A DNA stretch of 32,691 nucleotides from assembly GCA_003978565.1 (NCBI GenBank), contig QNZC01000062.1, positions 1 to 32,691 on the forward strand, given 5' to 3'. A program made the translations under genes and the position numbers. Every line of letters starts with the position of its first letter. Position 1 is the stretch's first letter. Of the stretch, positions 2,608 through 14,332 are shown piece by piece. The stretch is from Persephonella sp. (GTDB lineage: Bacteria > Aquificota > Aquificia > Aquificales > Hydrogenothermaceae). The notes under the pieces are model-generated. The model saw only the letters and a program-made list of their open reading frames with translations, was not told the DNA's origin and ran no database searches.

Positions 2608-3360
2608 TTATATCTTTTTTAAACACACATCTTTTATAAGAATTGGATAATTTTCTAAATAGTTGTATAACTCATTTATATCTGTATCGTTTTTAACAAA
2701 GTAAATTCTTCCACCTTTTCTATTTCCCTTTTCCTTTAAAGGAAAAATTCTTATATACTCCTCTTTAGTTGCAATATAACCTGTGATATAGTCCCTATCA
2801 TCTGAAACACAGTATTCAGCCAAAATATTTTCGTTATAAAGGTTTTTTGTTGACAATGCCAAAGCGTCTAATGTTCTCTCTGTAAATCCTAAATCCAGTA
2901 GCCTTTTTAAAATATCTTCCCTATAGATAAAATCCACAGTTGTTGTCCTTACTCCCCTATACCTATCTAACTCTAACCTTTCCCCTCTCTGATTAACAAT
3001 CATTGCACCTCTCATATTTTCTCCATTAGGGGAAGCTCCAGAATGGATAAGAGCAATTAGATAACTTAATCTTTCTTTTTTAATACCTGTTATCTCTGAT
3101 AAATAATCAATTGCGAAACTATTTGCCTCTCTAAAATTACTAAACTTTAATTCTTTTATACATAAACTTTTCTTTAAGATAATTGGTTTTCTATCTAATT
3201 TTTCAATTTTTATAGATATGAAGTCTGCATTTTCCCTATTAACTTTCTTTAAAATATTTAAAACTGTTTTTTCTAGCTCTTTAATGCTGACTATTCTTTC
3301 AGCACCAGAAATATGTATATCCTCTCTTGAGGAACGGGCTTTTATTGAGAATAACTCCAT
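2608..3360 (-). CDS. bioW: 6-carboxyhexanoate-CoA ligase (pimeloyl-CoA synthetase)
   Basis: A 250-residue protein of the usual BioW length. BioW activates pimelate with ATP and CoA to pimeloyl-CoA, the first dedicated step of one biotin route. The N-terminus (SIKARSSREDIHISGAERI) carries the family's opening signature. A central GASPNGENMRGAMIVN segment and RYRGVRTTTVD are typical of the adenylate-forming core. No other biotin gene is nearby. It starts 4 bases after the stop of the upstream psiE-like gene and is probably co-transcribed with it and surE. The 3' end overlaps a copy of a short repeated motif. Confidence 0.92.
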   Translation of the reverse strand: MELFSIKARSSREDIHISGAERIVSIKELEKTVLNILKKVNRENADFISIKIEKLDRKPIILKKSLCIKELKFSNFREANSFAIDYLSEITGIKKERLSYLIALIHSGASPNGENMRGAMIVNQRGERLELDRYRGVRTTTVDFIYREDILKRLLDLGFTERTLDALALSTKNLYNENILAEYCVSDDRDYITGYIATKEEYIRIFPLKEKGNRKGGRIYFVKNDTDINELYNYLENYPILIKDVCLKKI

Positions 3361-3364
3361 CCCT

Positions 3365-3688
3365 TTAATGTTCTAATTTAGTTATGCTTTTTTCCTTCCT
3401 TACGATTAAATAATAAACAATTCCCAATGCTAATAGTATTCCTCCATAGGATAATAAAACTTTACTATCTTTAGGTGATAGAGAAACAATCAGTATCTTT
3501 CTTATAATAGCGGCAAGGGCTACACTTATAAATGCAGTAATAGGAAAGCTTCCACCTTGTAAATGTTTTATTTCCTCTCCCATAAGTTCAGCTACTGCCC
3601 ACAGAATTAATAGACTACCTAAAGTTTTTAATATCCCTTCCTCTATAGAAACACTTCCATTTATCTGTTCAAATGTTTCTATTATCAT
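3365..3688 (-). CDS. PsiE-like small membrane protein
   Basis: A 107-residue protein with three or four hydrophobic segments: about 22-38, 48-68 (with the conserved-looking FISVALAAIIRKILIV) and 80-96. The pattern of an E-rich 'GEEIKHL' before a helix carrying 'AIIRKI' matches the phosphate-starvation-inducible PsiE family of inner-membrane proteins, whose biochemical role is unknown. It starts 4 bases after the surE stop and ends 4 bases before bioW, so it is likely part of one operon. No phosphate-regulation site was recognised. The family call is moderate. Confidence 0.7.
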   Translation of the reverse strand: MIIETFEQINGSVSIEEGILKTLGSLLILWAVAELMGEEIKHLQGGSFPITAFISVALAAIIRKILIVSLSPKDSKVLLSYGGILLALGIVYYLIVRKEKSITKLEH

Positions 3689-3692
3689 AGCC

Positions 3693-4457
3693 TCAATTCC
3701 TAAAGTAATTTTTTAAAAATTCTATATACTCATAGGCTGTTAAATCTATTTTAATCGGAGTAATTGATATATATCCATCCTTTACAGCAGTGTAGTCTGA
3801 ATTTTCATCACATTGAGCAGACAAATTTTCCCTTCCACCTATCCAGTAGTATAGATAACCTGATGGAGATATATACTCTCTAACTTCCTCCTCATAAGCC
3901 CCTCTTCCCTGTTTAGTTATCTTTATTCCCTTTATTTTGTCTTTAGGAACTGTTGGTATAGTGATATTTAAAAATGTTTTTTCTGGTAAACCTTTTTCTA
4001 TTACAGTTTCTATAAGGGGCATACAGATTTTTGCAATCTCTTTAAAATATCTTACTCTTGAAGAAGATGGAGATATTGCTATGGAAGGGAAACCTAACAT
4101 AGTTCCCTCTCTAGCTCCTCCAACTGTTCCTGAGTAGAATATATCGTTTCCTAAATTTGGTCCTGTATTTATTCCAGAAACTAAAAGGTTTGGTTTTTTT
4201 TCTTTCAAAACTGCAAAGTATCCAAGATGGACACAGTCGGCAGGTGTTCCATCCTCTATATAGTAAAAATCTTCTTCTAATTTAACTATCCTTAAGGGTC
4301 TAGTAAATGTTAATGAATGGCTTGAACCTGACATATTTCTATCTGGAGCTACAGTTATAACTTTATAACCTTTTTCTTTTAACTCCTCTCTAATTGCCAA
4401 AAGTCCCTCTGACCTATAACCATCATCATTTACAAGTAAAATAGTTTTTTCTGACAT
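3693..4457 (-). CDS. surE: 5'/3'-nucleotidase SurE
   Basis: About 254 residues, the usual SurE length. It is a metal-dependent nucleoside monophosphate phosphatase of the cytoplasm. The signature ILLVNDDGY at the N-terminus supplies the paired metal-binding aspartates. [28 protein letters not shown] and the following GTVGGAREG region complete the active site. I chose the ATG at 4455-4457, which gives [14 protein letters not shown]; a TTG four codons upstream would only add MDFI and has no better ribosome binding site. It heads the surE/psiE-like/bioW run. Confidence 0.95.
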
Positions 4458-4612
4458 TATAAAATCCAACTTTTTTTTAGATTTAGACTTTAATTATAGC
4501 ACCAAACTTTTATCTTTAATTAAAGAAACTACAATGTAGTTGTTGAATTAGTTGTTTGAGATAAACAGTTTTAAATTAATCTATTAGCAATAAAAAATTT
4601 CCTTAAAATTTA

Positions 4613-4621
4613 TGTTATAAT
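4613..4621 (+). promoter_or_regulatory. Extended -10 promoter for slyD
   Basis: TGTTATAAT is a perfect extended -10 (TG-N-TATAAT). No good -35 hexamer is seen 16-18 bases upstream. The predicted transcript would start near 4628 and carry a leader of about 100 bases before slyD. The same nine bases occur before rpsO. Confidence 0.55.
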
Positions 4622-4644
4622 ATAAAAATTATACTTTTTAAAAG

Positions 4645-4700
4645 TTCCTTTAGTTTTCTTAAAAAATTCCAAGGAAGGCTAAAGGAATTTTTAAATTTTT
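4645..4700 (+). promoter_or_regulatory. Attenuator-like leader of slyD with competing hairpins
   Basis: TTCCTTTAG (4645-4653) pairs perfectly with CTAAAGGAA (4679-4687), and the stem is followed directly by a T-rich run, as in an intrinsic terminator. TTCCTT (4645-4650) can alternatively pair with AAGGAA (4671-4676), which would prevent the terminator stem. The structure lies between the predicted start and the slyD ribosome binding site. No ligand class is recognised. Confidence 0.45.
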
Positions 4701-4726
4701 TATAATTTTTGGAGGTAAATTTTACA

Positions 4727-5197
4727 ATGGCTAAAGTTGAAAAAAACAAAGTCGTTAAGTTTCATTACACACTTAAGGATAAGGAAACAGGAGAAATTCT
4801 AGATAGTAGTCAACACTATGGAGAACCTTTATCTGTTTTAATAGGTGCAAACAATATAATCCCCGGTCTAGAAAGACAGATGGAAGGAATGGAGGTTGGA
4901 GAAAAGAGAACTATAGAAGTGAAAGCTGAAGAGGCTTACGGAGCTAAAGATGAAAGCTTAATACAGAAAGCCCCTAGAGAGTATTTTCAAGGAATAGAAC
5001 TCCAAAAAGGTATGCCTTTACAAGCTCAAACACCAGATGGACAGATTATAAATTTAACTGTTGTAGATTTTGACGATAACGAGGTTACAGTTGATATGAA
5101 CCATCCTTTAGCAGGAAAAGATTTAGTTTTTGATGTTGAAATTGTTGATGTTAGAGATGCTACACTTGAAGAACTAGCACATGGTCATGCTCACTAA
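4727..5197 (+). CDS. slyD: FKBP-type peptidyl-prolyl isomerase, SlyD-like
   Basis: About 156 residues. An FKBP domain (HYTLKDKETGEILDSS; LIGANNIIPGLERQMEGM) is interrupted at roughly residues 70-120 by the insert-in-flap chaperone domain typical of SlyD, then FKBP resumes (HPLAGKDLVFDVEIVDV). It catalyses cis-trans isomerisation of prolyl bonds and assists folding in the cytoplasm. The C-terminus has only a short His-containing tail (HGHAH) rather than the long metal-binding tail of E. coli SlyD. The start is the ATG with GGAGGT (4711-4716) 10 bases upstream; a TTG at 4709 would contain that site. It is followed by a terminator-like hairpin. Confidence 0.92.
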   Translation: MAKVEKNKVVKFHYTLKDKETGEILDSSQHYGEPLSVLIGANNIIPGLERQMEGMEVGEKRTIEVKAEEAYGAKDESLIQKAPREYFQGIELQKGMPLQAQTPDGQIINLTVVDFDDNEVTVDMNHPLAGKDLVFDVEIVDVRDATLEELAHGHAH

Positions 5198-5207
5198 TTA
5201 ATCTATA

Positions 5208-5225
5208 AACTCCCTCTTGGGAGTT
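5208..5225 (+). terminator. Terminator-like hairpin after slyD
   Basis: AACTCCC-TCTT-GGGAGTT forms a perfect 7-bp stem with a 4-base loop, 11 bases after the slyD stop, followed by pyrimidine- and T-rich sequence. The T run is not continuous, so termination strength is uncertain. Confidence 0.6.
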
Positions 5226-5402
5226 CCTCTATATTTAAATTTTTCAAGTGCTTAATTTCTCTTAATCTCTAATATCAATTTTCAATTTTGCAAAATTAAA
5301 AATTTAAAAGTCTTTGAAAGGTATATATAGAAGAATTTAGTTAATGGCATTAATTTTGCTTCTGATAAATCTGGATTGAAGATAAACTTAGAGGAGCAAA
5401 AT

Positions 5403-6296
5403 ATGATTTGTTTTTTCCAAAGAACTATAAAAAGAGAAGTTGAAATAAATGGAATAGGTTTACATACAGGGGAAAAAACTAAAATAAAATTAATTCCTGC
5501 TGTTGAGAATACTGGAATTGTTTTTATTAAAGATAAAGTAGAAATTCCCGCTAAAGTTGATTTTGCAAAAAAATTTGATTTTTCCACAAGTTTAGAAAAA
5601 GATGGAGAAGTTATAAATACTATAGAACATCTCTTATCTGCTCTATACTTTACAGGTATTGATAATATCTATATAGAGATAGAAGGAAGTGAAATTCCAA
5701 TTTTAGACGGTAGTTCACATCAATTTATTGAGTATATAAAAAAGGCTGGAATACGAGGTTTAAAGGAAGAAAAGATTTATGCAGTTTTAGATAGAGAAAT
5801 TACAGTTAAAGATGGAGACAAGTATATATCTGGAAAACCCTCTGAAGAGGTAATCTTCACATATCACGCAGTTTATCAAAATAAAATAATTGGTGATAGA
5901 AAGTTTAGTTATATTCCAACTGAAAGGGAAAGTTTTAATACAGTGTCAAGGGCAAGAACATACTGTTTTATAGAGGAGGTTGAATATTTAAAAAAGTTAG
6001 GATTAGCAAAAGGTGGCTCTTTAGAGAATGCAGTTGTTTTTGATGGAGACAAGGTTTTAAATCCGGAAGGTTTAAGATATGAGGATGAACCTGTTAGACA
6101 TAAATTATTAGATTTGATAGGAGATTTATATCTTTTAGGTTTTCCTTTATGGGCTGAAGTTTATTCATACAAAGGTGGTCATAGATTAAATGCTGAATTT
6201 GTAAGAAAGCTAAAAGAAGAAAAAGCATTTGATTTATACTATGCCTCTGAGATTTTAGATAAAAATAAACTTTCTGAAAATTTAATGGTTAGATAG
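5403..6296 (+). CDS. lpxC: UDP-3-O-acyl-N-acetylglucosamine deacetylase
   Basis: About 297 residues, normal for LpxC. This zinc enzyme carries out the committed step of lipid A synthesis, so the organism makes lipopolysaccharide. The zinc ligands are visible: His76 in NTIEHLLSAL, and His233 and Asp237 in VRHKLLDLIGDL. The catalytic His260 is in KGGHRLN. The N-terminal QRTIKREVEINGIGLHTGE is the family opening. The start is the ATG preceded by GAGGAG (5391-5396); an upstream TTG at 5376 would include this site. The 14-base palindrome AATTTTGCAAAATT lies about 105 bases upstream. It converges with the acyl-CoA ligase. Confidence 0.96.
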   Translation: MICFFQRTIKREVEINGIGLHTGEKTKIKLIPAVENTGIVFIKDKVEIPAKVDFAKKFDFSTSLEKDGEVINTIEHLLSALYFTGIDNIYIEIEGSEIPILDGSSHQFIEYIKKAGIRGLKEEKIYAVLDREITVKDGDKYISGKPSEEVIFTYHAVYQNKIIGDRKFSYIPTERESFNTVSRARTYCFIEEVEYLKKLGLAKGGSLENAVVFDGDKVLNPEGLRYEDEPVRHKLLDLIGDLYLLGFPLWAEVYSYKGGHRLNAEFVRKLKEEKAFDLYYASEILDKNKLSENLMVR

Positions 6297-6305
6297 AAAT
6301 ATCTA
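6290..6305. terminator. AT-rich hairpin between convergent genes
   Basis: TAGATA-GAAA-TATCTA is a perfect 6-bp stem with a GAAA loop overlapping the stops of lpxC and the acyl-CoA ligase, followed by T-rich sequence on the plus strand. It may act as a two-way terminator, though an AT stem would be weak in a thermophile. Confidence 0.35.
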
Positions 6306-7853
6306 TATTTTAAAAATTCCCTTTTCTAACATCTCTTTTAACTTTCTTTTTAATATTTTACCTGTTGCATTTTTAGGAAAATCTTCCACTATGAAAATAT
6401 GTTTTGGAATTTTATAATCTGCAATTTTTCCCTTTAAAAATCTCTTTATTTCCTTTTCTCCAAAATCTTTAATACCTTCAACAAGCTTTACAAATGCTAC
6501 AGGTATCTCTCCATAGTTTTTATCCTTTTTTCCGATAACTGCTGAAATCTCTATATTTGGATGTTCATTTAATAACTCCTCTATATCCCTTGGATATATA
6601 TTTATACCCTTTGAAATAATTAAATCCTTCTTTCTGTCAACTATATACAGATACCCTTCCTCATCAAACTTTCCTAAATCTCCTGTAAATAACCAACCAT
6701 CTTTTATAACCCTATCTGTTTCTTTTTTATTTTTGTAATAACCTTTCATAACACAATTACCTTTTACAATAATCTCCCCTATTTCTCCGACAGGTAGCTC
6801 ATTAAAATTATCATCAACAATTTTTACAGTATAGTCAGGCAAAGGCTTTCCTACAGACATAGGTTTGGGTCTTTCAGGTGGATTTATTGACACTACAGGA
6901 GAGCATTCTGTAAGCCCATACCCTTCAATTAAAGGAGTTTTAGGAAACTGTTTTCTCATCCTGTTAAATGTCTCAACTGGTAGAGGTGAACCGCCACTAA
7001 CAAAAAATCTGATATTGTGGAAAAACTTAAAATACCAGGGTAGTTTAGCTTTAGAAAGAGCGTTGTAAACCTCTGGGACACCTAAAAATATACTTACTCT
7101 TTTTAAAAGTGTCTGCTTTAAAACATTTGAAAATGGAAAGACAGACCTTATTATCACAAAGGAAGCTCCAAGGTATATAGGTAATAGTATAGATGCTGTT
7201 AATGTAAATGTATGAAACATCGGCAGATAGACGATAAATCTGTCTTTATCTGAAACTTTTCCGAGAAATGCTATATTCTCAACATTAGATATTAAATTTC
7301 TGTAGGATAACATTACAGCTTTAGGAGTTCCTGTTGTTCCTGATGTATAAAGAAGAACAGCTGTATCATCAATGGAAATATTTTCTTCAAAATCTAAAAA
7401 TTCTTTAAATTTTAAACCTTCCTTTAAAGAGTGTTTGCTATCTATATCTTTCCAGATTATATACTGAAGAAAAGGTTTTTCTTGTATACTCTCTAATTTT
7501 TTTTTGAATTCCCTTTCTGTAATTAAGGCTTTAGCTTCACTGTGATTTAATATATGCTCTATTTCCTCTGATTTTAAAAATGTATTAATAGGAACTGGAA
7601 TAGCCCCTATCTTTTGGATTGCAAATAGAGATATAACAAAATCTGGTGAATTTTTTAATAAAATGGCAACTTTATCACCTTTTCCTATTCCTAAATTTAT
7701 GAGATAACCTCCTAAACTATCTGTATAATCTTTTAACTGTTTATAAGTTAGATTTCCCTCTTCTGAGAATATCACTTTTTTGTTTTTAAACTTAACTGCA
7801 TTTTCTTTTATTACAGAGTAAAAATTTTTGTGTAAAAATTTAGCTAAACTCAT
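6303..7853 (-). CDS. AMP-dependent acyl-CoA synthetase, long-chain fatty acid ligase type
   Basis: 516 residues, the usual length for the ANL superfamily. It activates a carboxylic acid with ATP to an acyl-adenylate and then to the CoA thioester. Motifs in order: the P-loop-like LLYTSGTTGTPKAV, the GYGLTECSPV adenine-binding segment, GWLFTGDLG, the hinge DRKKDLIISKG, and the C-terminal PKNATGKILKRKL with the catalytic lysine. These fit FadD-like long- or medium-chain ligases, but the substrate cannot be read from sequence. The start overlaps the mtaB stop by 4 bases (ATGA), with GAGGAAG just upstream, so the two are translationally coupled. Confidence 0.88.
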   Translation of the reverse strand: MSLAKFLHKNFYSVIKENAVKFKNKKVIFSEEGNLTYKQLKDYTDSLGGYLINLGIGKGDKVAILLKNSPDFVISLFAIQKIGAIPVPINTFLKSEEIEHILNHSEAKALITEREFKKKLESIQEKPFLQYIIWKDIDSKHSLKEGLKFKEFLDFEENISIDDTAVLLYTSGTTGTPKAVMLSYRNLISNVENIAFLGKVSDKDRFIVYLPMFHTFTLTASILLPIYLGASFVIIRSVFPFSNVLKQTLLKRVSIFLGVPEVYNALSKAKLPWYFKFFHNIRFFVSGGSPLPVETFNRMRKQFPKTPLIEGYGLTECSPVVSINPPERPKPMSVGKPLPDYTVKIVDDNFNELPVGEIGEIIVKGNCVMKGYYKNKKETDRVIKDGWLFTGDLGKFDEEGYLYIVDRKKDLIISKGINIYPRDIEELLNEHPNIEISAVIGKKDKNYGEIPVAFVKLVEGIKDFGEKEIKRFLKGKIADYKIPKHIFIVEDFPKNATGKILKRKLKEMLEKGIFKI

Positions 7854-9157
7854 AATACTTCCTCACCGAAGTTGTCCTCCCTTTCTACTCCAATACTCTT
7901 TAGTTTAACTTTAGTTATCTCATTGGTATTTTTATCTGATATAAACTTAATATGAATATAATTTCCTGTAATGCCAACCTTATATTTGTCTCTCTTGGAT
8001 ATTACTAAAACTTCCAACTCTTTATTTAAAAATCTCCTTCTAAAGTTTAGATTTTTTTCTTCAGATAACTTAATTAATATATTTGTTCTTCTCTTTTTCT
8101 CTTGAGGGAATACAGTATCTCCAAACTTTTCTGCAGATGTTCCCTTCCTTTCTGAATAAGTAAATATATGCATATAGGCAAATGGAATTTTCTTTAAATT
8201 GTTATAACTTTCCTCAAAATCCTCTTCTGTTTCTGTTGGAAATCCTGTAATAACATCTGTTCCTATAGCCGTTTCTTTCCTTTTCTCAACAATTTTAAAA
8301 ACTTTTTCCATATACTCCTCAACTGTATAGTTTCTTTTCATATCCTTTAATACTTTGTTAGATGCAGACTGGATAGATAGATGAAAATGTGGAGCTATCT
8401 TTTCTTCAGATGTAATAAAATCTATCAGATTGTCGTCAAGCTCATTTATTCCCATTGAAGAAAGTCTAATTCTGTATAGACCTTCTATTTTTACTAACTC
8501 TTTTAATAAATCGTAAAGATAACCTTCCCTGCGGTCATATCCAAACTGTGAAAGCTGTGTTCCTGTTAAGACAATCTCTTTAAACCCTCTACTTACAAGT
8601 ATCTTAACCTGTTCCTTTATATTATCTATCTTTCCGCTTCTAACTTTTCCTCTAGCAAAAGGAATGATACAGAAACTACAAAAACTGTTGCAACCTTCTT
8701 GAACCTTTAAAATCGGTCTTGCTCCTTCATAAAATGTTGAAATCTGAAAAGTTTTAAACTGGTTTAATCTAAATATATTTTCTATGTAAACCTTTTCTTT
8801 TTTTCTTTCGTTTATGTAGTTTTCTACTATTTCATAAACGTCTTCTTTGTGGGAGTTTCCTATTACTAAATCTATTTCTTCTATATCTGCCAACTTATCT
8901 GGACTTACCTGTGCATAACATCCTGTAGCAACAACAATAGAATTAGGGTTTCTTCTTTTCGCCTGTCTAAGAATTTTTCTAGATGTTCTATCTGCATCAT
9001 TTGTAACAGTGCAGGTATTCACTATATAAACATCAGCTTTATCTTTAAAATCCGTTATATCAAAACCTTTTTTCTCAAACTTTTCTTCCAAACCGGAAGT
9101 TTCAAACTGGTTCATTCTACAACCTAAAGTGTAAAAGGCAACCTTCAGTTTTCTCAT
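7850..9157 (-). CDS. mtaB: tRNA t6A37 methylthiotransferase MtaB
   Basis: 435 residues. A radical-SAM methylthiotransferase that converts t6A37 of ANN-decoding tRNAs to ms2t6A. The N-terminal domain binds one iron-sulphur cluster through Cys13 (TLGCRMNQ), Cys49 (NTCTVTND) and Cys80 (ATGCYAQ). The radical-SAM cluster is Cys156, Cys160 and Cys163 in EGCNSFCSFCIIP. A TRAM-like C-terminal domain follows. The TLGC-R-MNQFE opening and NSFCSFC core place it with MtaB rather than MiaB or RimO. It lies in a minus-strand run with hemD upstream and the acyl-CoA ligase overlapping downstream. Confidence 0.92.
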   Translation of the reverse strand: MRKLKVAFYTLGCRMNQFETSGLEEKFEKKGFDITDFKDKADVYIVNTCTVTNDADRTSRKILRQAKRRNPNSIVVATGCYAQVSPDKLADIEEIDLVIGNSHKEDVYEIVENYINERKKEKVYIENIFRLNQFKTFQISTFYEGARPILKVQEGCNSFCSFCIIPFARGKVRSGKIDNIKEQVKILVSRGFKEIVLTGTQLSQFGYDRREGYLYDLLKELVKIEGLYRIRLSSMGINELDDNLIDFITSEEKIAPHFHLSIQSASNKVLKDMKRNYTVEEYMEKVFKIVEKRKETAIGTDVITGFPTETEEDFEESYNNLKKIPFAYMHIFTYSERKGTSAEKFGDTVFPQEKKRRTNILIKLSEEKNLNFRRRFLNKELEVLVISKRDKYKVGITGNYIHIKFISDKNTNEITKVKLKSIGVEREDNFGEEVL

Positions 9158-9231
9158 TTTCCCTTTTAATCCTTCTTTGAATTTTTTATAAAAAAATTAA
9201 ACAATTTCAGAGCTAAATTTTATGTTTATGA

Positions 9232-9975
9232 TTACTCTTTAAACAATTCTTGAATTAGGTCTAAAATATCTTCTACCGTTGATTTTCTAGGAATATAAAA
9301 ATCTGTTATTCCCTGCTCCTTTAGAGTTTTCCCTGTAGTTTTTCCTATAGAAATAACATTAACTTCTTTAAGAAAATTCTGCCACTCATCTTTAAAAATG
9401 TCTTTAAAACCTAAAAACGTTGAAGGACTTGTAAATATAACAGCTTTTATTTTTTTATTCTCAAATAAAGATTTAACCCCATCTACATTCTCCGGTTTGT
9501 TAAACAGAGTTTCATAAACATACAGAGGTTTAACATTCGGTAGTGTTTTTTCCAATAAATCAATTCCTCTTTTAGCTTTAGGAAACAGAATTTTCTTGTT
9601 TTTGTAATAATCCCAATCATTTTTTAACAAACTTAAAACCCCTTCAGAACTATAGACTTCAGGAATTTTAATATTTGTAAAACCTAAATCTCTTAGCTTT
9701 TCAGCAGTTTTTTCTCCTACAGCTATAAACTCTCTATCTTTCAGTTTTTCTAATCTATCAGAAATCTTTTGAAAAAAGTATTTTATTCCCTTTTTACTTC
9801 CAAATATAAAAATGTCGTAGTTAGTTATATTTTTCGTATCAAAGTCTAAAGGGACAGTTTTTATTGTAGGAAATAGTATAGGTATAAAACCTAAATTCTC
9901 TAATCTGTTTGCTAAAACTTTACCATCTTCAAGCTCCCTAGTTATTAAAACTCTATAGGTATGTATATTTTTCAT
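9232..9975 (-). CDS. hemD: Uroporphyrinogen-III synthase
   Basis: About 247 residues, normal for HemD. It cyclises hydroxymethylbilane to uroporphyrinogen III in tetrapyrrole synthesis. The family diverges strongly, but the N-terminal RVLITRELEDG segment, the FGSKKGIKYFF region, the AVGEKTAEKLRDLGF motif and the second-domain VIFTSPSTFLGF plus SIGKTTGKTLKEQG are the expected repeats of the two-domain fold. I chose the ATG at 9973-9975. An in-frame TTG at 9996 would add seven residues that are only the out-of-frame reading of a relic panB tail (9953-10003). The ATG lies within that relic, implying that panB and hemD once overlapped. Confidence 0.9.
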   Translation of the reverse strand: MKNIHTYRVLITRELEDGKVLANRLENLGFIPILFPTIKTVPLDFDTKNITNYDIFIFGSKKGIKYFFQKISDRLEKLKDREFIAVGEKTAEKLRDLGFTNIKIPEVYSSEGVLSLLKNDWDYYKNKKILFPKAKRGIDLLEKTLPNVKPLYVYETLFNKPENVDGVKSLFENKKIKAVIFTSPSTFLGFKDIFKDEWQNFLKEVNVISIGKTTGKTLKEQGITDFYIPRKSTVEDILDLIQELFKE

Positions 9976-10003
9976 CGGGAAAAGTTTCCTCTTCAACTTC
10001 CTT
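9953..10003 (-). repeat. Relic second copy of the panB 3' end overlapping the hemD start
   Basis: Read in the panB frame these 51 bases encode KEVEEETFPDEKYTYL and a TAG stop, against KEVEEETFPDEKHTYL and TAA at the true panB end (10600-10650). Six bases differ, five of them silent. The copy lies between hepT and hemD and covers the hemD start codon. It forms a direct repeat with the panB end, offset by 647 bases, flanking mntA-hepT. Confidence 0.9.
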
Positions 10004-10006
10004 TTG

Positions 10007-10225
10007 TTAATCTTTTATTTCATTTGAAATCTTTTCAATTTCATTTTTTAAATATGGAATATCCTCTTTTATTGTTAACCATATAATTTCTAAACTTCTA
10101 ATAAAAGCTCTTCTTAAATCTTCATTTCTTTCAAATTCCAAGAAAGTTAAATTTCCACTTCTGTTAATTAGATAATTACACTCTTCTAAAATATCATTTA
10201 TATAATCTTCGTAATATCTTTTCAT
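10007..10225 (-). CDS. hepT: HepT-like HEPN protein, shortened, lacking the catalytic motif
   Basis: 72 residues, where HepT (DUF86) proteins usually have about 110-120. Residues 1-48 match the family's first part (YYEDYINDILEECNYLI, then RRAFIRSLEII). Residues 49-72 (WLTIKEDIPYLKNEIEKI) match the family's last helix, normally preceded by a 'VDLEIVW' stretch. The roughly 40 residues expected between, which carry the R-x4-6-H-x-Y RNase motif, are absent, while the frame stays open. This looks like an in-frame deletion joining LEII to the final W. The protein should lack RNase activity and the tyrosine that MntA modifies. It overlaps mntA by 4 bases (ATGA). Alternatively it may be a naturally small non-toxic paralogue. 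Confidence 0.75.
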   Translation of the reverse strand: MKRYYEDYINDILEECNYLINRSGNLTFLEFERNEDLRRAFIRSLEIIWLTIKEDIPYLKNEIEKISNEIKD

Positions 10226-10515
10226 AAAGGGATAGCCTCTTTTAATATTTGTTTTTTTATATAAGGTTTTAAAGATTTTTTAATTACTAAATCAACCTTT
10301 AAGCCAAGAAGTTTTGAAAGATAATTTTCCAATTTTATAAACTGAATAAGGGTTATAGGCTTTTCAAATTCTACAAGAATATCTATATCACTTTCAGGAG
10401 TTTGTTCTCCTCTAACATATGAACCAAATACAGAAAGATTTTTTATAAAATATCTTTCTCTTAATTCTTTTTTATGTTCTTTTAAAATCTTTTTTATTTC
10501 CTCTAATGTTTTCAT
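10222..10515 (-). CDS. mntA: Minimal nucleotidyltransferase, MntA-type antitoxin
   Basis: 97 residues, the usual size for MNT proteins. The polymerase-beta-like signature is complete: GSYVRGEQTPESDIDILVEF with Gly31-Ser32, Asp43 and Asp45, and a third acidic residue Asp75 in LKVDLVI. In characterised pairs, MntA neutralises the HEPN toxin HepT by adding AMP to a tyrosine near its active site. Here the partner overlaps by 4 bases but lacks that region, so the enzyme may have lost its target. The gene lies about 85 bases after the panB stop. The pair is flanked by direct repeats of the panB end, suggesting acquisition. Confidence 0.88.
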   Translation of the reverse strand: MKTLEEIKKILKEHKKELRERYFIKNLSVFGSYVRGEQTPESDIDILVEFEKPITLIQFIKLENYLSKLLGLKVDLVIKKSLKPYIKKQILKEAIPL

Positions 10516-10599
10516 TTTATTAACCTTTTAAGTTTCTTATTTATTAATTTACGCTAACTAAAAAATCTAACTTAAGTTTTTTATATCAACTATTATTAA

Positions 10600-10650
10600 T
10601 TACAGATATGTATGTTTTTCATCTGGGAAAGTTTCCTCTTCAACTTCCTT
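10600..10650 (-). repeat. panB-proximal copy of the 51-bp direct repeat
   Basis: This is the functional panB 3' end. Together with 9953-10003 it brackets a 596-base segment holding mntA and hepT. The longest identical stretch, 24 bases, is the purine-rich codon run for KEVEEETF (10628-10651). Confidence 0.9.
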
Positions 10651-11391
10651 TATAAATTGAGAGATAGCATCTTTAAATAGTTTCTTTCCTTCTAAATATC
10701 TTTTAACAAACTTTGGAGATTTATCAAAAAATCCCAATAAATCGTGAAAAACTAAAACCTGACCGTCCGTTTTGTTTCCTGCACCAATCCCAATAGTTGG
10801 AATTTCTAAAGAATTTGTTATATCTTCAGCTAAACTCTTTGGAATAGCTTCTAAAACTATAGAGAAAACTCCAGCATCCTGTAAAAGTTTTGCATCTCTC
10901 TTTAATTTTTCCTGTTTCTCCTTAGTCTTCCCTTGAACTTTATAACCTCCTAAAGCATGGACAGACTGTGGAGTTAAACCTAAATGTCCCATTACAGGGA
11001 TACCAGATTTTACCAATTTTTCTACAGTTTCCAATATTTCCTCTCCACCTTCCAGTTTAACAGCATTAGCTCCTGTTTCTTGCATTATTCTTCCAGCATT
11101 TTTTAAAGCCTCTTCTTTGTTCACCTGGTATGTTAAAAATGGCATATCAACAACTATAAATGTATTTGGAGCTCCTCGCCTTACTGCTTTAGCATGATAG
11201 ATAATTTCATCTAAACTTACCGGTAAAGTGCTGTCCTGTCCTTGAACAACCATTCCCAGACTGTCCCCAACTAAGATACAGTCTATACCTACCTCTTCAC
11301 AGATTAAAGCTGACCAGTAATCATATGTAGAAATCATTGTTATCTTTTTATTTTCTCTCTTTACCTTTAAAAAATCTAAAATTGTTTTCAT
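10600..11391 (-). CDS. panB: 3-methyl-2-oxobutanoate hydroxymethyltransferase
   Basis: 263 residues, normal for PanB. It transfers a hydroxymethyl group from methylenetetrahydrofolate to 2-oxoisovalerate, giving ketopantoate for coenzyme A. Visible features are the N-terminal ISTYDYWSALICEEVGID, the metal-binding VGDSLGMV, the VVDMPFLTYQ segment, GHLGLTPQSVHALGGYKVQG, and the C-terminal IGIGAGNKTDGQVLVFHD. The 3' end (10600-10650) is duplicated at 9953-10003 next to hemD. The sequence before it (11392-11535) holds no gene. A TATAAT on the minus strand (11425-11430) is a possible -10 without a clear -35. Confidence 0.96.
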   Translation of the reverse strand: MKTILDFLKVKRENKKITMISTYDYWSALICEEVGIDCILVGDSLGMVVQGQDSTLPVSLDEIIYHAKAVRRGAPNTFIVVDMPFLTYQVNKEEALKNAGRIMQETGANAVKLEGGEEILETVEKLVKSGIPVMGHLGLTPQSVHALGGYKVQGKTKEKQEKLKRDAKLLQDAGVFSIVLEAIPKSLAEDITNSLEIPTIGIGAGNKTDGQVLVFHDLLGFFDKSPKFVKRYLEGKKLFKDAISQFIKEVEEETFPDEKHTYL

Positions 11392-11535
11392 CTCTATTCC
11401 TAAAATTTAATTGATACTGAAAAGATTATAAAATAATTCTCTGTTTCTTTTTAGTGATAAATGATATTTATATTTTTGATATAAGACTGGATTGTAATTA
11501 AGATGGTTGAGGTTTGATTTGGAGATTTTTTTTAA

Positions 11536-11611
11536 TGGCTGGGGAGGCAGGACTCGAACCTGCGACACCCGGTTCCAAAGACCGGTGTTCTGCCAACTGA
11601 ACTACTCCCCA
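11536..11611 (-). tRNA. tRNA-Gln (anticodon TTG)
   Basis: A full cloverleaf is visible on the minus strand: acceptor stem TGGGGAG/CTCCCCA, D arm GTTC/GAAC, anticodon stem CCGGT/ACCGG with loop CTTTGGA giving anticodon TTG, and T arm GCAGG-TTCGAGT-CCTGC. The discriminator is G and CCA is encoded. It begins 10 bases after the ispE stop, so it is probably processed from the same transcript. Confidence 0.97.
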
Positions 11612-11621
11612 ACACCGTATA

Positions 11622-12446
11622 TTATTTTAACCTAGTTTTTATTAATTTCCAACCTTTAGATTTACAAATTAGCTCTAATTTTTCGTCAGCAGTTCCAAAG
11701 GCATAAACACTACTACCGCTTCCGCTAATATATCCCTTGTATCCCAAAAACTCTAAAGTATGTAAAACTTCCTTTATTATGGGATATTCCTCTTTAGCTA
11801 TATCCCCTAACCTATTCTCTATGTAAGATAACCACTCTTCAAAATCACTATCCAGGTTAGATATTATAGGGATTTCATCTTTTTTTGTCAATAAATCTTC
11901 TCTAACCAGTTCATAAATTTTCTTAGTTGAAACTTGAATATTTGGATAGATAATAAAAATCTCTCTATTAAGTTTTTTGTCTAAAAATCTTAACTTATCT
12001 CCTATTCCTTCTCCTATGGCAAATCCACCTTTTAAAAAGAATGGGACATCTGCTCCTAATGTAGATGCTAAATTAAATAGCTCCTGCTCTGTTAAAGGGT
12101 TTCCTTCTAGCTCATTTACAGCCTTTAATACTACTGCAGAGTTTGAACTTCCTCCACCTAAACCAGCTCCCACGGGAATATTCTTTTCTATAAAGACCTC
12201 ATAATTTGGTTCAATACCAGTCCATTCTTCAAATTTCTTTAATGTTTTAAAAACTATATTTTCTTCATCTTCAGGAACTAACGGAGAGGAGGTTGAAACT
12301 TTCAGTTTCACAGATTTTTTTATATAGATTTTATCTCCAAAATCTACAGTATGATATATCGTGAATATATTGTGATAACCGTCTGGTCTTTTTCCTAAAA
12401 TCCATAAACCTAAATTTATTTTTGCCGGTGAGAATAAAACTTTCAT
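11622..12446 (-). CDS. ispE: 4-diphosphocytidyl-2-C-methyl-D-erythritol kinase
   Basis: 274 residues, normal for IspE, a GHMP kinase of the MEP isoprenoid pathway that phosphorylates CDP-methylerythritol. The N-terminal SPAKINLGLWILGKRPDGYH carries the conserved Lys9 and the family signature. The ATP-binding PVGAGLGGGSSNSA is at 91-104. LGADVPFFLKGG supplies the catalytic aspartate. The C-terminal YISGSGSSVYAFG is the third GHMP motif. It begins 15 bases after the nadC stop and is followed at once by tRNA-Gln. Confidence 0.96.
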   Translation of the reverse strand: MKVLFSPAKINLGLWILGKRPDGYHNIFTIYHTVDFGDKIYIKKSVKLKVSTSSPLVPEDEENIVFKTLKKFEEWTGIEPNYEVFIEKNIPVGAGLGGGSSNSAVVLKAVNELEGNPLTEQELFNLASTLGADVPFFLKGGFAIGEGIGDKLRFLDKKLNREIFIIYPNIQVSTKKIYELVREDLLTKKDEIPIISNLDSDFEEWLSYIENRLGDIAKEEYPIIKEVLHTLEFLGYKGYISGSGSSVYAFGTADEKLELICKSKGWKLIKTRLK

Positions 12447-12461
12447 CTTCCAATACCTCGT

Positions 12462-13278
12462 TTAAATTATCTCTACTCTCATTGATATATCTAACCACTT
12501 TGAAGAGTGTATAGTTGCCCCTGTAGATATAAAATCAACTCCAGTTAGAGCCACTTCTCTAATATTATCTAATGTAATATTTCCAGATGCTTCAAGTTTC
12601 ACTTTACCATTTACCAACTTCACAGCCTCTTTCATGTCCTCTAAATTCATATTATCAAGCATAATAATATCAACATCACACTCTAAAGCTTCTTTCAACT
12701 CTTCTAAATTTGAGACCTCAACTTCTATTTTTACCATTGGTGAGACTTTTTTCTTTATCTGTTTAACAGCTTCACTTATAGAGCCTGCCAGTAATATGTG
12801 ATTATCCTTTATCATCACCATATCGTATAGAGCAAATCTGTGATTTTCCCCTCCACCAACTTTTACCGCATACTTTTCAAAGTATCTAAATCCCGGTGTT
12901 GTTTTTCTGGTATCTAAAAGTTTCGTTTTTGTCCCTTCAAGTCTTTCAACATACTTTCTCGTTAATGTTGCAATTCCTGATAGCCTTTGAGTTATGTTTA
13001 ATGCAGTTCTTTCACCTTTTAATAAAGCCTTTCCATTCCCCTCTATTTCCAGTAAAACATCTCCTTTTTTTACACTTGAGCCATCTTTTTTGTAAGTTAT
13101 TACCTTTAGATTTTCATCTAAAATTTTAAATATAGAAATCGCGAAGTCTATTCCTGCTAAAACTCCATCATCTTTAGCTATAAAGTGTCCTCTTGCCTTC
13201 CTATCAACATCTAAACTGTCTGTAGTAATATCCTTTACTCCTATATCCTCTAATAAAAACTCTTTAAGTTTTTCTCAT
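12462..13278 (-). pseudogene. nadC: Quinolinate phosphoribosyltransferase with a one-base frameshift near the start
   Basis: Translation of the minus strand from about 13267 to 12462 gives an otherwise intact NadC: KLKEFLLEDIGVKDITTD, then LLDTRKTTPGFRYFEKYAV, GGGENHRFALYDMVMIKDNH, EVEVSNLEE, IIMLDNMN and KLEASGNITLDN. These are all the expected substrate and phosphoribosyl-pyrophosphate contacts. The ATG at 13276-13278 is in another frame: ATG AGA AAA ACT TAA. Removing one A from the run of five gives ATG AGA AAA CTT and a 271-residue protein of normal length. No other good start exists upstream of 12821 in the coding frame. It may be a sequencing or assembly error, a recent mutation, or a slippage site. 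It starts 1 base after the hisC stop and is clearly co-transcribed. NadC makes nicotinate mononucleotide for NAD synthesis. Confidence 0.88.
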
Positions 13279-13279
13279 C

Positions 13280-14332
13280 TCAGAAATTTTCCTCTAACAC
13301 TTTTTTTAATGCTTCTAAAAATATCTCATTTTCTTCAGGTTTTCCTATAGATACTCTTAAACAGTTTTCCATTTTAGGAATATGAGACATATTTCTAACT
13401 AAAACACCTTTTTCTATTAATTTTTTATGGACTAAATCACCGTTAGGAGTTTTTATAAGTATAAAGTTAGCATCTGAAGGATAAACTTTTATTCCATCAA
13501 AATTTTTTAGCTCATTTATCAGTTTTTCTCTCTCTTTCTTTAATATTTCAATCTGTTCTTTAATAACCGGTAAACCTTCCGTTAGAACCACTTTAGCTAT
13601 AATCTGTGTTGGATATGTAATATTAAAAGGTAATCTTCCTTTATTTATTTCAGTTGCCACTTCCTCTTTAGCAATTAAAACCCCCAATCTTATACTTGCA
13701 AGTCCTATCTTTGACATAGTTCTTAAAATAACTAGATTATCTCTATTTAATGCTTCATCTAGAAAACTTTCTTTATCTGAAAAATCAATGTAAGCCTCAT
13801 CAACTACAACAAAAACATTATTATCGGCAGTGTATTTTATTAATTCTCTATTAAAACTATTACCTGTTGGGTTATTAGGAGATGCATAGAATACCAAATC
13901 TGGTGATTTTTCTAAAGCTTTATCTATCTCATTTTTTTGTAAATCAAAATTTTCATCTAACTGAAATTCTACTTTTTCTCTACCTATTGTATCTGATGAA
14001 ACTTGATACATCGGAAATGTAGGTATTGGATAGGCTACAGGATTTTTTATATTGCCTATAGTCATTATTAAAAGTTGTATTAATTCGTCCGAGCCATTCC
14101 CAAAAACTAGGTTGCTCTCTTTTACATTGTATAAATTTGCTAAAATTTCCCTTAACTCTGAAACGTTAGGGTCAGGGTATCTTTGAAATGGAATTTTTTT
14201 TATTTCTTCTGCTATTTTTTCCTTTAACTCCTCTGGTAAATCAAATGGATTTTCATTTGAAGACAGTTTAACTTTACATGGAGTAGTTTCAGTTTTATAA
14301 CTTTTAAGTTTTTTTAATTTATCTAAAAACAT
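13280..14332 (-). CDS. hisC: Histidinol-phosphate aminotransferase
   Basis: 350 residues, a class II pyridoxal-phosphate aminotransferase of normal HisC length. It converts imidazole acetol phosphate to histidinol phosphate. Visible are the N-terminal KLSSNENPFDLP, the FGNGSDELIQLL phosphate-binding region, YASPNNPTGN with the conserved Asn-Pro-Thr-Gly, VVVDEAYIDF with the cofactor-contacting Asp and Tyr, and LRTMSKIGLASIRLG with the Schiff-base Lys208. Related aromatic or cobalamin (CobD) aminotransferases are possible, but the motifs favour HisC. It heads the minus-strand run and is divergent from trkA. Confidence 0.92.
   Translation of the reverse strand: MFLDKLKKLKSYKTETTPCKVKLSSNENPFDLPEELKEKIAEEIKKIPFQRYPDPNVSELREILANLYNVKESNLVFGNGSDELIQLLIMTIGNIKNPVAYPIPTFPMYQVSSDTIGREKVEFQLDENFDLQKNEIDKALEKSPDLVFYASPNNPTGNSFNRELIKYTADNNVFVVVDEAYIDFSDKESFLDEALNRDNLVILRTMSKIGLASIRLGVLIAKEEVATEINKGRLPFNITYPTQIIAKVVLTEGLPVIKEQIEILKKEREKLINELKNFDGIKVYPSDANFILIKTPNGDLVHKKLIEKGVLVRNMSHIPKMENCLRVSIGKPEENEIFLEALKKVLEENF

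Follow-up and report, generated by a model that had tools for sequence, protein, structure and literature searches.

How did a small toxin-antitoxin-type gene pair come to lie between two housekeeping genes with the end of one of them repeated on either side? This question is raised by the window analysed here, a 32,691-nt contig (C10) of a heat-loving Persephonella sp. whose draft genome is 69% complete and consists of 88 contigs. On the minus strand the gene order is panB, an 84-nt spacer, mntA, a short hepT, a second panB tail and hemD (Table 1). An earlier note on this DNA had observed the repeated tail and attributed it to the gain of a panB-mntA-hepT end from a related strain; its observation is confirmed and its interpretation supported in part, and the locus is an instructive if local example of a type of event already known. 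The reading that we favour, at somewhat better than even confidence, is that mntA-hepT entered the panB/hemD junction when hemD already lay behind panB, that the event duplicated at least 51 nt, and that HepT was later disarmed.

Table 1. Features of the panB-hemD junction in the window
Feature	Position	Strand	Remarks
panB (3-methyl-2-oxobutanoate hydroxymethyltransferase), intact, 263 aa	10600..11391	-	NCBIfam TIGR00222
Outer repeat copy, functional panB 3' end	10601..10651	-	Repeat search; reads KEVEEETFPDEKHTYL followed by a stop
Spacer, panB stop to mntA start	10516..10599	-	84 nt
mntA, MNT adenylyltransferase antitoxin, 97 aa	10222..10515	-	Pfam PF01909; GSX10DXD intact (GSYVRGEQTPESDID)
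hepT remnant, 72 aa	10007..10225	-	Overlaps mntA stop by 4 nt (ATGA)
Deletion scar GAAATTAT, 8 nt	10083..10090	-	One copy; intact hepT of G040 (L143) has two, 126 nt apart
Inner repeat copy, relic panB tail, KEVEEETFPDEKYTYL	9954..10004	-	Stop TAG at 9953-9955
GAGG, Shine-Dalgarno-like	9988..9991	-	Within relic tail, 12 nt before hemD ATG; presumed function
Overlap of relic panB reading frame with hemD	9953..9975	-	23 nt, sequence
hemD (uroporphyrinogen-III synthase)	9232..9975	-	Pfam HEM4 157 bits; ATG 9975-9973 in relic tail

The panB product scores 376 bits against its NCBIfam model (cut-off 207.6) and shares 81% amino acid identity with that of the same-genus genome G031. The outer repeat copy completes this intact gene and is, as had been claimed, the true panB 3' end. 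Together with the inner copy, which begins 2 nt past the hepT stop, it forms a direct repeat (D1) of 51 nt at 90% identity and a spacing of 647 around mntA-hepT, and comparing the module's two flanks with BLAST gave E = 5e-16. Against its whole own genome the second tail copy gave E ~1e-14 to 4e-14, with a 15-mer as the next best match, and BLAST found no panB-tail repeat elsewhere in the draft. The copies differ at five positions within the 51 nt and at the stop codon, six in total (TTC/TTT, CCA/CCC, CAT/TAT for His/Tyr, TAT/TAC, CTG/CTA and TAA/TAG), and our recount agrees with the earlier one that five of the six are silent in the panB frame. A transposon-type target site duplication was rejected, as the insert has no transposase ORF and 51 nt is far above the usual length for such duplications.

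Could the repeat be an artefact, with two strains of a metagenome joined into an assembly chimera? The draft is fragmented and incomplete, and the copies diverge about as much as two species do, both of which speak for a chimera. The window is, however, free of Ns and the longest exact run common to both tails is 24 nt, which makes a k-mer assembly chimera unlikely; in addition, the hemD frame is intact across the join and the genome holds no other duplicate of the tail. We consider this explanation very improbable.

The role of the inner copy emerges from a comparison of HemD sequences. Relatives align with the window protein only from its residue 4 or later, most of them from residues 7-9, and residues 1-7 (MKNIHTY) result from reading the panB tail in a different frame. 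The protein reads MKNIHTY-RVLITRE, with YRVLITRE standing where relatives start MKVLITRE or similar, and the stretch from the relic-tail ATG to the conserved VLITRE strand offers no further ATG, GTG or TTG in frame. Because hemD has apparently lost its own start, the inner panB tail most likely gives it a start codon, its first seven codons and a Shine-Dalgarno-like site. The out-of-frame residues thus establish that panB tail and hemD were joined in this lineage. They bear out the description of the inner copy as the relic of a panB 3' end that has been fused to hemD, and the relic stop lies inside hemD with the 23-base overlap that the earlier note had given.

The repeat may continue past the panB stop into hemD as a gapped match (TTAATAA-TAG / TTAATAACTAG), which at p ~0.06 is weak and was not used. 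Since the evidence for duplication beyond the stop is of this strength, the order of events that we infer, hemD first and cassette second, is not proven. An older panB-hemD junction overlapping by ATGA, with one G lost later, would fit the TATAGAGTT join; it was rejected for want of independent support.

We next compared the neighbourhoods of panB and hemD in relatives. The panB 3' end overlaps or touches the start of tsaC in nearly all of 29 relatives, by 1 to 23 nt in most, and at three loci (L007, L016 and L020) the tsaC ATG falls on the same panB Asp-Glu codons as the hemD ATG of the window. In relatives, hemD is usually found behind an ion-channel-like gene, and its position differs even within the genus. 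The two genes are adjacent in none of the family genomes in which both were found, and are far from each other in all of them. With panB normally next to tsaC and hemD elsewhere, their contact is lineage-specific rather than a family trait; the relocation of hemD relative to all relatives, along with its variable position in the genus, indicates that hemD has moved here, and the 23-nt overlap is, on the gene orders compared, a local innovation. The relatives used for this comparison are too distant to test a lineage-specific state. The earlier note had expected insert-free relatives to show the panB-hemD overlap and had named its absence from them as counter-evidence. This absence is what the family genomes display, so its claim that the genes once overlapped may hold for this lineage and fails as an ancestral state.

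The mobility of hemD also bears on a reversed order of events, in which panB-mntA-hepT came first and hemD arrived later out of a panB-hemD haplotype, together with part of the panB tail. The displaced and variable position of hemD agrees with such an arrival, as does a cassette that is undated, but the incoming tail would have had to end up no more than 2 nt from the hepT stop, and we regard this order as quite unlikely.

Two close genomes were considered as witnesses of an empty site and rejected. In G031, panB and hemD are on different contigs. In the sister species G032 (93% DNA identity), a contig gap spans window positions of about 4,377-13,082, with contigs ending on either side, and lies exactly over the panB-hemD site. 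The same-genus G031 (L002/L031) carries an OmpH/Skp-like gene behind panB, in place of tsaC or hemD, and the 3' side of panB has thus been rearranged more than once in the genus.

Alignment with G032 also brought out two differences elsewhere in the window. A 107-aa ORF at 3365-3688 is an in-frame fusion relative to L258 (G032:C35, about 3305-3898); G032 has ~590 nt more in this region, encoding an extra N-terminal domain that by eye looks globin-sensor-like, and this additional domain was lost in the window between short TTTAT repeats. In nadC (about 13240-13280, minus strand), ~17 nt present in G032 are missing directly after the ATG and the frame is shifted, so that the in-frame start codon is apparently lost.

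What does the divergence of the two tails say about their origin? Of random changes in the panB tail, a fraction of 0.235 would be silent; had all six observed changes fallen on an inner copy free of constraint, the chance of at least five silent ones would be P = 0.003. With G031 as outgroup, about three changes are assigned to the inner copy, one of them an amino acid change and two silent. Outer-copy changes are silent because that copy still is panB, so only the inner-copy changes are informative; for three of these the corresponding probability is P = 0.14 and for four it is 0.04. The silent pattern thus excludes only the model with all six changes on an unconstrained inner copy, and the earlier argument that silent differences speak against a target duplication was too strong. 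A long target duplication made inside one genome as mntA-hepT inserted, with all divergence arising after the event, also accounts for a right border 2 nt past the hepT stop and for the missing transposase, and long, variable target duplications have been described for restriction-modification units (PMC3874152). It requires that most inner-copy changes be panB-silent by chance, at the probabilities just given, and no similar duplication is seen at other mntA-hepT loci. Taken alone, we rate it unlikely, albeit well above an assembly artefact.

The alternative proposed in the earlier note is that an incoming panB end with mntA-hepT from a related strain replaced the resident end, which would make the outer tail foreign and the inner one resident. 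When 17-codon windows of the present genome and G032 were compared, they had a mean of 2.5 silent changes, with 5 or more in 14.5% of them. The panB tails, with 5 silent changes in 17 codons, are within this sister-species range, and a donor as closely related as the 93%-identical G032 is therefore possible and unproven. The high silent fraction would suit this origin, although for the outer copy every model predicts silent changes. Elsewhere in the family, the PanB tails of L004 and L022 show the His to Tyr change as well, and between G031 and the window dS is lower for mntA (~0.9) than for panB (~3, saturated), a weak hint of a later transfer. The divergence thus fits a sister species quantitatively, but neither a donor nor a recipient haplotype was found among the genomes compared. 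The panB-tail tree suggested in the earlier note was set aside as uninformative, given 51 nt and a single congener. We hold this replacement to be possible, though on balance improbable.

The inserted genes themselves were then examined. MntA matches Pfam PF01909 at 79.3 bits (cut-off 21) and NCBIfam MntA_antitoxin at 57.4 bits, just below the cut-off of 60, and its GSX10DXD is the motif shown to transfer AMP (PMC7641770). The HepT remnant scores 19.6 bits against the Pfam HepT-like model, below the cut-off of 23.5, and has no match in NCBIfam. It aligns with intact HepT (G040, G028 and G029) in two blocks, covering query residues 1-48 and 87-108, with 85% amino acid identity to G040 HepT over the first 48 residues. 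Its closest relatives retain RDKxIHDY, the catalytic and AMP-accepting centre. Forty-two internal residues that include this RX4HXY centre are missing from the window protein, and the alignment shows HepT to have been disarmed, as far as can be read from its coding sequence, through the in-frame loss of 126 nt between two GAAATTAT repeats. With its RNase and AMP-accepting centre removed, the locus should no longer act as a toxin-antitoxin pair. The toxin-antitoxin pair of the earlier note is thus not an intact one: MntA keeps its motif and HepT does not.

A related situation is seen in G031, where an orphan mntA (L142, 1501-1788) that is 80% identical to window MntA stands behind an rng-like gene with no hepT beside it. 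Pairwise dN/dS between the two mntA genes is ~0.12; as an average, this value could date from before the toxin was lost. Given a disarmed HepT in the window, an absent hepT in G031 and a conserved MntA motif in both, MntA might outlive the toxin in this genus, either counteracting other HepT toxins on its own or transferring AMP to a different target, a suggestion that we consider doubtful.

Is duplication of flanking host sequence a general property of this module? No flanking host-gene duplication was found at the 33 other mntA-hepT loci of the phylum. The window is the sole case among 34, and duplication is thus not a habit of the module. Candidates at L211 and L229 proved to be tandem toxin-antitoxin copies and were rejected. 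At L210 (G070), mntA-hepT lies between uvrC-like and pyrD-like genes, with repeats at 1229-1433 and 2269-2417 that belong to a dispersed family of ~80-130 nt with dozens of copies in G070 and G073; the 132-nt, 92% repeat there was accordingly rejected as a second example. In G031 mntA follows rng, which is the case neither in the window genome nor in G032, and the cassette thus sits at different sites within the genus. In the window, no homology was evident between the 84-nt spacer and the sequences upstream of other mntA genes.

In our preferred reading, an insertion that duplicated the overlap, hemD would have come to lie directly behind panB in this lineage, a direction of movement that we infer. 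The start signal of hemD would then have fallen within the panB tail, where relatives have the start of tsaC. The small mntA-hepT cassette would later have entered the junction and left one panB 3' end on either side, the outer completing panB and the inner presumably retained because it carries the hemD ribosome-binding site and start codon. HepT would have been disarmed subsequently, by the deletion described above. Where the end of panB overlaps the start of the next gene, an insertion must duplicate the tail if both genes are to be spared; insertions into overlapping genes thus survive only with a duplicated overlap, and selection favours seeing such cases. Three routes to the duplication are likeliest and are inseparable here. 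A circle of related-species DNA bearing the panB tail and the cassette may have integrated by a single crossover, related-species DNA bearing the panB tail and mntA-hepT may have entered by one-sided, homology-facilitated recombination, or the cassette may have inserted with a long target duplication, as restriction-modification genes do.

These observations suggest that a tight gene overlap can take in a small gene pair without killing its neighbours, provided that the event duplicates the overlap, and that the next gene then takes its start region from the spare copy. They also present a toxin-antitoxin pair caught mid-decay with its antitoxin intact and, given sister-strain sequence across the junction, a clean site for telling long target duplication from donor recombination.

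A comparison with characterized systems places the locus among several known phenomena. It resembles the type VII HepT-MntA system (PMC7641770) in its adjacent genes, an MNT protein with GSX10DXD and clear HepT sequence similarity, and differs in a HepT that, lacking 42 residues with RX4HXY among them, is predicted to be a non-working toxin. When restriction-modification genes insert, they duplicate target sequence on the order of 100 bp (PMC3874152, reviewing Nobusato 2000 and Furuta 2010), and the window shares with them a selfish-type pair, a lack of transposase, a direct repeat of host sequence and a location between housekeeping genes. Unlike those cases, it has a type VII toxin-antitoxin cargo and a 51-nt repeat whose copies are 10% different, other mntA-hepT loci in the phylum have no flanking repeat, and no empty site was seen. 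Single crossovers in E. coli leave duplications of 109-950 bp beside the insert (PMC3240628), and for homology-facilitated illegitimate recombination, a downstream displacement of old 3' ends has been proposed (PMC5361080). As in these integrations, the displaced 3' end of the anchor gene lies downstream of the new genes; in contrast to them, the displaced end in the window is most likely reused as the start of the next gene.
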